From Anaerolineae bacterium (GTDB taxonomy: Bacteria; Chloroflexota; Anaerolineae; Aggregatilineales; Phototrophicaceae), in NCBI GenBank assembly GCA_022843745.1, contig JALHNB010000015.1:1-64000 (forward strand): a stretch of 64,000 nt of DNA, in the 5' to 3' direction. Every line of letters starts with the position of its first letter. The stretch's first letter is position 1. The notes under the pieces were generated by a model. That model searched no databases and had not been told where the DNA came from. It worked only from the letters and a program-made list of their open reading frames with translations. Both the position numbers and the translations under genes were made by a program. Below are positions 18,827 through 21,604 of this stretch, one piece after another.

Positions 18827-19843
18827 ATGCTGTTTCGTTATGTTCTCCGACGATTGATTCTGGCCATTCCGATGATGTTGGGCATCTCGCTGGTGTTGTT
18901 CCTTATCTACAACATCGTGCAGGTTGACCCGCTGGTGATGATTGTCGGTGAACGGGCGCTGGATAAGCCGGAGATCGTGGACGCGGCGATCCGAAAATGG
19001 GGGCTGGATCGCCCGATCTGGGAGCAGTACATCACGTATGTGCTGAATATGCTGCGGGGCGATTTTGGCGATTCCTTCCTGACGAAACGACCCGTCGTGG
19101 ATGATCTGGTTGCGTTTCTCCCAGCGACGGCGGAACTGGCGCTGAGTTCGCTGGCCTTCGCGACGCTGATGGGGATACCGTTGGGGATTCTGGCGGGTGT
19201 CAAACATCGCAGCCGTATCGACAAAAGCTTGTGGTTTGTGTCGCTGCTGAATGCGTCGCTGCCGCCGTTCTGGACAGGGCTTATTTTTTTGACGATATTT
19301 TATTTTTATCTGGGTGTCGCGCCTGGCCCCGGACGGCTCGATCCGCGCATGACCGCGCCGGAACGCATTACGGGATTGTTTACCGTCGATTCGATTCTAG
19401 CGGGGAATTGGGCGGGGTTTGTGAGTGCGCTCCACCATCTGATGCTGCCAACGCTGATTTTGGGCGGTTTTACGCTGGCGCTGGTGCTGCGAGTAACACG
19501 GGCGGCGATTATTGAGGAAATGCGGCGCGATTATATCCGCACAGCACGAGGCAAGGGTTTGAGCGAACGGCGCACGATCACCGGACACGCGCTGCGGAAT
19601 GTGATGATCCCGCTGGTGACGATTTTAGGATTGGCGTTCGCGGGGTTGTTAAGCGGCGCGGTGATGACGGAAACGGTTTTTGAGTGGCCGGGGCTGGGGC
19701 AGTATCTCGTCAAAGCGGCGGTCAATCTGGATTATCCAGCGATTCAGGGTGGGACGCTCTTAATTGCCCTGTTTTACGTGGTCGTGAATATGATCGTCGA
19801 TATTCTGTATGGGATTCTTGATCCGAGGGTGCGATATGGGTAA
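18827..19843 (+). CDS. DppB-type ABC transporter permease
   Basis: This 338-residue integral membrane protein starts LFRYVLRRLILAIPMMLGISLVLFLIYNI, the conserved N-terminus of DppB/OppB permeases. It carries the EAA-like cytoplasmic loop RDYIRTARGKGLSERRTITGHALRNVMIPL, which docks on the ATPase. TETVFEWPGLGQYLVKA is a further family signature. It follows the binding-protein gene after 133 bases. A shortened R2-like hairpin lies between the two genes. Confidence 0.95.
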   Translation: MLFRYVLRRLILAIPMMLGISLVLFLIYNIVQVDPLVMIVGERALDKPEIVDAAIRKWGLDRPIWEQYITYVLNMLRGDFGDSFLTKRPVVDDLVAFLPATAELALSSLAFATLMGIPLGILAGVKHRSRIDKSLWFVSLLNASLPPFWTGLIFLTIFYFYLGVAPGPGRLDPRMTAPERITGLFTVDSILAGNWAGFVSALHHLMLPTLILGGFTLALVLRVTRAAIIEEMRRDYIRTARGKGLSERRTITGHALRNVMIPLVTILGLAFAGLLSGAVMTETVFEWPGLGQYLVKAAVNLDYPAIQGGTLLIALFYVVVNMIVDILYGILDPRVRYG

Positions 19844-19984
19844 TACAACCCCTCCCCTAGCCTTCCCCATTTCGCAAGCTCATGGAGAGGGAGAAAAGAT
19901 GGGCAGGTCTGAGACCTGCCCCTTCAAGCGCGACGATTTCACATGGACGTGGCGGGTTGACTTTAGTAGGGGCGCATCGCGATG

Positions 19985-20168
19985 CATACGCATTAAGCTA
20001 AGGAATTAAACCCGTTTTTGAAGGCTTTTTAGGCATAAAGCCGCAACGATTCTCGCCGCAAAAGCCTAAAAGCGACCATGAAACTGGTGTAATGCAGTGG
20101 ATGATAGGTTCAAAAAGTACCTTTTCAAGCCTGTTTTACCCTCAAAATGTCTTAGCTTAATGCCTATG
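19985..20168 (+). mobile_element. 184-bp MITE (R5), copy 1, inserted in an R1 palindrome
   Basis: The element starts CATACGCATTAAGCTAAG and ends with CTTAGCTTAATGCCTATG, an 18-bp inverted repeat with one mismatch. It is flanked by the 10-bp direct repeat CATCGCGATG (19975-19984 and 20169-20178). Removing the element and one direct repeat restores a complete R1 palindrome. No open frame is inside, so it is non-autonomous. Confidence 0.88.
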
Positions 20169-20385
20169 CATCGCGATGCGCCCCTACTAAAGTCAACCTC
20201 ACCCCCAACCCCTCTCCAATGGCTTGGAGAGGGGAGAAAAGACAGGTGTGGTAGATTGATTGGCAGGCGACCCGGTGGGTTCAAAGGGGCGGCGTTTGAA
20301 AAGGGCTTGATCTATCATGCCCCTACGAATGCGGCGGGTTCATATGGAGCGTGGCGGGTTGATTAAGATAGGGCGCACAGCCGTG

Positions 20386-20569
20386 CATACGCATTAAGCT
20401 AAGGAATTAAACCTGTTTTTGAGCGCTTTTTAGGCACAAATCGACAACGATTCTTGCGGAAACTGCCCAAAAGCGACTATAAAATCGGAGTAAAACAGTG
20501 AGGTATAGGTTCAAAAAGCACCTTTTCAAGCCTGTTTTACTCTCAAAATGTCTTAGCTTAATGCCTATG
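20386..20569 (+). mobile_element. 184-bp MITE (R5), copy 2, inserted in another R1 palindrome
   Basis: This copy has the same length and ends as copy 1 and is roughly 85% alike by eye. The flanking 10-bp direct repeat is CACAGCCGTG (20376-20385 and 20570-20579), different from copy 1, so this is an independent insertion. It again sits at the centre of an R1 palindrome. Confidence 0.88.
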
Positions 20570-20722
20570 CACAGCCGTGCGCCCCTACGGTGATGGTGTC
20601 ACGAGAGGTTAAACAGGGCGACCCGGCGGGTACGCCCCTACAGAGAACGCAGATTGGCGAAGGGCGCACGGCTGTGCGCCCTTACAAGCCGATGAAAAGT
20701 CACATCATATGAAGGGTCAAAA

Positions 20723-21604
20723 TTGGCGACGACGCAGCAGTTAAGCACACCCACGACGGAAGTCAGCTTTCGCGAAAATATTGGCAGGGCAGTGGCGCAC
20801 GCGCGGAAATATCCGTCGATGTGGGTTGGGCTGACGATTCTGATCCTGTTCATACTGGTGATCGTGCTCGCCGATGTGATCGCGCCCGTTGACCCGCTGG
20901 CGCAGGATTTGACGTTCCGGCTGAAGCCTCCGACGAGCGAACATCCTTTCGGAACGGATGAACTCGGACGCGATATTTACAGCCGCGTGGTACACGGTGC
21001 GCGGATTTCGCTGCCAGCGTCGTTTTTCGTGGTGATCGTGTCGGTGATTGTGGGAACATTTTTGGGTGCGCTGGCGGGATTTTTAGGCGGTGCGGTGGAT
21101 GAAGTGATTATGAGGATCGCCGACGTGACGCTGGCGTTTCCGTCAGTGGTGCTGGCGCTGGCGATTTCGGCATTTCTTGGCCCCAGCCTGACCAACGCGA
21201 TTATCGCGGCGTGTGTGGTTTTGTGGCCGGAGTACGCGCGGCTGATGCGCTCACAAGTGCTGGTCGTGCGCTCGTTTGAGTTTGTGATGGCGGCGCGTTC
21301 GCTGGGGATGCGCGAACTGATTATTCTGGTGCGCCATATTCTGCCGAACACCTGGACACCGCTGATTATCAAAGCCGCGCTGGACGTGGGCGGGATTATC
21401 CTGCTGGTATCGGCGCTGAGTTTTCTCGGATTGGGAGTCACGCCGCCCGCGCCGGAGTGGGGCGCAATGATCGCGATGGGGCGCACCAAGTTTTATCAAT
21501 GGTGGCTGGCGACATTCCCCGGCATCGCGATTCTGCTGGTGATTTTCGCGTGTAATCTGTTGAGCGAGGGGTTACGGAATTGGCTTGATCCGAATTACAA
21601 GTAG
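20723..21604 (+). CDS. DppC-type ABC transporter permease
   Basis: The start is a TTG at 20723 with GAAGGG upstream; no in-frame ATG fits better. The 293-residue protein has the DppC hallmarks: DPLAQDLTFRLKPPTSEHPFGTDELGRDIYSRVVHGARIS, an OppC N-terminal signature. The EAA loop is VMAARSLGMRELIILVRHILPNTWTPLIIKAALDVG, and the family ending LSFLGLGVTPPAPEWGAMI follows. It pairs with the DppB-type permease across the repeat-filled gap. The ATPases must come from elsewhere. Confidence 0.94.
   Translation: MATTQQLSTPTTEVSFRENIGRAVAHARKYPSMWVGLTILILFILVIVLADVIAPVDPLAQDLTFRLKPPTSEHPFGTDELGRDIYSRVVHGARISLPASFFVVIVSVIVGTFLGALAGFLGGAVDEVIMRIADVTLAFPSVVLALAISAFLGPSLTNAIIAACVVLWPEYARLMRSQVLVVRSFEFVMAARSLGMRELIILVRHILPNTWTPLIIKAALDVGGIILLVSALSFLGLGVTPPAPEWGAMIAMGRTKFYQWWLATFPGIAILLVIFACNLLSEGLRNWLDPNYK

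Follow-up and report, generated by a model that had tools for sequence, protein, structure and literature searches.

Miniature elements with IS231-like ends at the centers of GTAG-tagged REP-like palindromes in a genome of the Chloroflexota

The IS231 subgroup of the IS4 family has ends of the form CAT-------AA--TAA--- and target duplications of 10–12 bp, and nearly all reports of it come from the Bacillus cereus group (PMC2266710). REPs are known as targets of five IS families, and all copies of ISRm22, an IS4-family element of Sinorhizobium meliloti, lie in REPs at the axis of palindromy (PMC1525189). GTAG-tagged REPs were defined by Di Nocera et al. 2013 (PMC3733652). The window analyzed here, which is the whole stretch of 64,000 nucleotides from contig JALHNB010000015.1 of an Anaerolineae bacterium, contains two MITE copies that recall these systems. 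Their coordinates and those of the surrounding features are listed in Table 1.

Table 1. Features of the two MITE insertions and their surroundings in the window
Feature	Position	Strand	Remarks
Upstream gene, binding-protein-dependent ABC transporter permease	18827..19843	+	BPD_transp_1
Split R1 palindrome, left arm, copy 1	19966..19974		GTAGGGGCG
Target duplication, left, copy 1	19975..19984		CATCGCGATG
MITE copy 1, 184 bp	19985..20168	+	terminal inverted repeats 18 bp: 19985-20002, 20151-20168
Target duplication, right, copy 1	20169..20178		CATCGCGATG
Split R1 palindrome, right arm, copy 1	20179..20187		CGCCCCTAC
Split R1 palindrome, left arm, copy 2	20371..20375		GGGCG
Target duplication, left, copy 2	20376..20385		CACAGCCGTG
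MITE copy 2, 184 bp	20386..20569	+	terminal inverted repeats 18 bp: 20386-20403, 20552-20569
Target duplication, right, copy 2	20570..20579		CACAGCCGTG
Split R1 palindrome, right arm, copy 2	20580..20588		CGCCCCTAC
Intact R1 palindrome	20662..20681		GGGCGCACGGCTGTGCGCCC; empty site of this kind within the same intergenic region
Downstream gene, a second such permease	20723..21604	+	OppC_N, BPD_transp_1

Both insertions lie within the 879-bp gap 3' of the upstream permease gene. A preliminary description of this DNA had reported two 184-bp elements with 18-bp inverted ends and 10-bp direct repeats, and direct reading of the sequence confirms them: the ends are CATACGCATTAAGCTAAG and CATAGGCATTAAGCTAAG, matched at 17 of 18 positions, and the window contains four end matches, where shuffles predict 0.02. 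The likeness of ends and duplications to IS231/IS4-type elements, which that description had pointed out, agrees with the published subgroup (PMC2266710); CATACGCATTAAGCTAAG coincides with the IS231 form at every listed position, and the direct repeats, of 10 or 11 bp, fall in the published range. When the flanks are joined without the insert, ctttagtaggggcgCATCGCGATGcgcccctactaaag and attaagatagggcgCACAGCCGTGcgcccctacggtga are obtained, and the palindrome GGGCG-CAN6TG-CGCCC is restored at both sites, so that each direct repeat is the exact center of an R1 palindrome, as had been claimed. The length of the duplication should be read with care, since the element starts with C and ends with G while the target has G and C around the 10-mer, and the duplication at the window sites can thus be counted as 10 or 12 bp.

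The R1 palindromes, which serve as the targets, look like GTAG-tagged REP-like sequences. The intact form (GGGCGCANNNNNNTGCGCCC) occurs in 209 exact copies in the 7.96-Mb draft genome, and the reversed control pattern in none. Among the 20 R1 copies in the window, the GTAG/CTAC tag is found on one side in 17 and on both sides in none; R1 thereby agrees with the definition of GTAG-tagged REPs as high-copy palindromes of 20–40 bp with a GTAG tag at one end only. The window also has GGGCG palindromes with a different inner sequence, which are used by none of the seven MITE copies of the genome. The first target site without its insert is a perfect 50-bp palindrome, in which GGTTGACTTTAGTAGGGGCGCATCGCGATG overlaps with its own complement at the core. 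This palindrome (19955-19984 and 20169-20198) reaches 11 bp past the usual R1 arms, unlike the other R1 copies in the window, which end at or near the arms.

Of the seven MITE copies in the draft genome, six are complete and one is cut off at the end of a contig. Short, multicopy and bounded by 18-bp terminal inverted repeats, they have the features of a MITE, including a 10-bp target duplication in all six complete copies. Inspection of the flanking bases of each copy places all seven at the exact center of R1: GGGCG-CANNNNNNTG is present on the sequenced side of every copy, and the same 10-mer followed by CGCCC is present on the opposite side of the six complete ones. For random insertion, seven of seven in R1 would have p ~1e-32, a simple product to be read as an order of magnitude only. 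The target preference that had been deduced from the two window copies therefore holds throughout this genome; it is strong, though not absolute in the relative described below. Six different cores are used, namely CATCGCGATG, CACAGCCGTG (twice), CACTGCCGTG, CAATATATTG, CAAGGTCTTG, and CATAGCTGTG in the cut copy. Three complete copies and the cut copy are mutually 99–100% identical and occupy different targets, which means that they moved recently, and their different cores show that an element does not take its core along when it moves. These data bear on the alternative that the R1 halves and the MITE form one larger composite, bounded by the R1 arms as outer inverted repeats and transposed as a whole. 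Such a composite would account for the R1 arms beside every copy in this genome, but it is already contradicted by the near-identical MITEs with different cores and different flanks and by the hundreds of R1 palindromes that are uninterrupted.

Whether the two window copies are separate events should be considered with their flanks. The left flanks of both copies are homologous over about 60 bp, a feature absent from the preliminary description, and none of 500 shuffles gives an equally good match; tandem duplication therefore had to be considered. The homology (19917-19960 and 20318-20362) ends in GTGGCGGGTTGA, a 12-mer that is unique within the window. A single insertion followed by tandem duplication of a segment of about 400 bp, by which the two copies would represent one event, is also in keeping with the copy spacing of 401 bp. 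However, the right flanks show no match past the palindrome, and the duplications agree within each copy but differ between the copies at four of the 10 positions. The window copies are mutually 86% identical, and copy 1 is 92% identical to the C64 group. In a quartet test, copy 1 joins the C64 group and copy 2 joins C16 in 96% of bootstraps (8 sites vs 3 and 2), and the split of the window copies has a maximum-likelihood support of 82. Against these observations, the tandem duplication of an already inserted copy is quite unlikely. The two insertions are likely independent, as was first proposed, judging from the differing duplications and the quartet test. The simplest reading is that an R1-bearing segment was duplicated, a step that we infer from the flanks, and was then hit twice.

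Elements with the same ends are numerous in one more of the 98 family genomes, designated G012 (MAG Chloroflexi bacterium ANAER1 bin.52, JAIUNI01). Its MITEs are 186–187 or 339–340 bp long and have an end sequence of about 23 bp in common with the window MITEs. Among 14 paired elements, 10 have R1 on both sides, one has it on one side, and three lie outside canonical R1; the duplications at these three non-R1 sites are 11 bp long. All 17 single ends lie in R1. In a few pairs, R1 is present on both sides but the cores differ, as would result from recombination between copies or from joining during assembly. A third kind of element, 124 bp long (L072:1501-1624), lies in R1 with the 10-bp duplication CATGGCTGTG. 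It holds GTAG/CTAC palindromes inside, and repeats of this kind are thus nested. Exact intact R1 numbers only 34 in G012, beside numerous split sites, and R1 targets may become limiting there. The composite explanation is further opposed by the G012 elements that carry the same ends and 11-bp duplications without R1 arms, and by the recurrence of the same arrangement around quite different interiors; we regard it as very improbable.

Traces of related elements are found in several other genomes. G015 has a truncated relic of the G012 transposase element in R1. Elements of G098 and G105 (L099, L113, L116, L122) whose ends are similar, for example CATAGGCATTAAGCTAAG, have CCCCCT/AGGGGG-rich repeats beside them in place of R1, which suggests that they are cousins with another target repeat. 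G011 has a 460-bp IS4-like remnant with diverged ends (L208:1337-1796), which has a full R1-kind palindrome with the core AACATGTT on each side, at the edge of the palindrome and not at its center. In G009 (L105), a gene for a Y1/RAYT-type transposase is located near a lone end motif in an R1-like site. A scan for the end motif in about 85,000 genomes gave the known relatives and, elsewhere, scattered unpaired matches that look like chance, and scanning IMG/VR gave no elements.

The preliminary description had proposed a trans-acting IS4-family transposase and a search for an autonomous IS with the same ends. In the genome's own assembly, searches with the end pattern, PF01609 and NF033592 found no autonomous same-ended IS4-type element, but G012 carries an element that shares their ends and their target and encodes the N- and C-termini of an IS4-type transposase. 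Nine contig ends of G012 break off slightly more than 100 bp inside this element, whose ends are identical over the assembled 100+ bp. One kind of end contains an ATG reading MSTSQFTAKAEQMKQF, and the other end encodes the C-terminus APLLKRIDDDFQRFALKTIRRKSPSTLQLLIQFGA, with the frame confirmed and the stop codon inside the terminal repeat. All nine sequenced ends lie in R1. Each of the four left ends finds a partner among the five right ends by its 10-bp core, and the remaining right end shares an 11-bp core with a MITE-type left end. Because some cores recur, these ends could also be paired in other ways. The MITE and the IS have only the terminal repeats in common.

With regard to the catalytic DDE residues and the Y(2)R(3)E(6)K signature, the two termini are the parts of the G012 transposase that are assembled. 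A 1.2-kb element in G045 encodes a broken transposase that has a C-terminus 53% identical to the one in G012 and contains YRIRFQLEWLFRTWK, a Y(2)R(3)E(6)K motif. This C-terminal homologue matches NF033592, the NCBIfam model of the IS4 family, at 1.3e-12, which is below the curated cut-off. Searching the whole class with the two termini of the transposase returned noise only. In the start region of the G012 element, GGTATTCTC...GAGAATACC directly precedes the ATG. In other IS4-family elements, the ribosome-binding site is sequestered in read-through transcripts, and we infer that this pair of sequences could act likewise.

The same-ended IS4-type element in a relative also bears on the idea of another mobilizer, for instance a Y1/RAYT transposase by which the REP-like palindromes would be spread as well. 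The genome does have two Y1_Tnp matches and abundant REP-like repeats. However, R1 does not flank the stronger Y1 gene, and, to our knowledge, 10–11-bp duplications and 18-bp inverted ends are not among the features of Y1 transposition. Such a mobilizer is hardly probable, even less so than the composite unit.

Taken together, it is very probable, as far as the sequences tell, that the 184-bp MITE family is moved in trans by an IS4-family, IS231-like transposase that targets R1 centers. The transposase would synapse the two 18-bp ends and capture the center of a GTAG-tagged REP-like palindrome (GGGCG-CANNNNNNTG-CGCCC) as the target. Staggered cuts about 10 bp apart would then duplicate the 10-bp core and leave one palindrome arm on each side. 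The MITE copies may have been moved by the G012-type transposase, or by a close relative of it that this genome has since lost or that its assembly lacks. The arms, not the core, appear to be read, because the six inner core bases are variable and often imperfectly palindromic. A symmetric transposase complex might read the two GGGCGCA half-sites, and recognition of the arms might take place either on duplex half-sites or on an extruded cruciform. We put forward only tentatively, as a rather doubtful generalization, that IS4-type transposases in this Chloroflexota order are each specialized for a different interspersed repeat, R1 here and the CCCCCT-rich repeats in G098 and G105. If true, repeat families would be dedicated landing pads, recognized through symmetric arms or a cruciform and not through the core sequence.

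As for effects on the host, the window copies widen the gap between the two permease genes of the binding-protein-dependent transporter. Scanning for promoters and terminators gave no signal better than in shuffles. Regarding an RNA function of the MITE, neither an Rfam match nor base pairs with compensatory changes were found. Insertion into intergenic REPs is a plausible low-harm way for a transposon to spread.

Compared with the described systems, R1 resembles GTAG-tagged REPs in being short, palindromic, of high copy number and tagged on a single side, but this genome yielded no RAYT gene flanked by R1, its one clear Y1_Tnp gene having no R1 beside it, and R1 is not assigned to one of the published families (Di Nocera et al. 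2013; PMC3733652). The MITEs resemble IS231 and the MIC231 cassettes in ends that start with CAT and have AA and TAA at the conserved positions, and in the 10–12-bp duplications; non-autonomous relatives with the same ends are also known for IS231 (PMC2266710). They differ in being 184 bp long without a gene, in belonging to the Chloroflexota and not to the Bacillus cereus group, the source of almost all reported IS231 elements, and in having as a target a REP-like palindrome with GGGCG arms outside the duplication. The IS231-like end type is thereby extended beyond that group. A parallel in target choice is ISRm22, likewise of the IS4-family type and placed in REPs at the axis of palindromy, whereas it is a full IS, with six-base duplications as reported in that work, in another REP family and another phylum (PMC1525189). 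ISs that target REPs are thus already known, and the present case is a clean new example of a known insertion behavior, by which the few elements known to enter REP-like palindromes now include a MITE/IS pair and a further phylum. With arms that are fixed and cores that vary, the determinants of target choice can be read here from natural sites.
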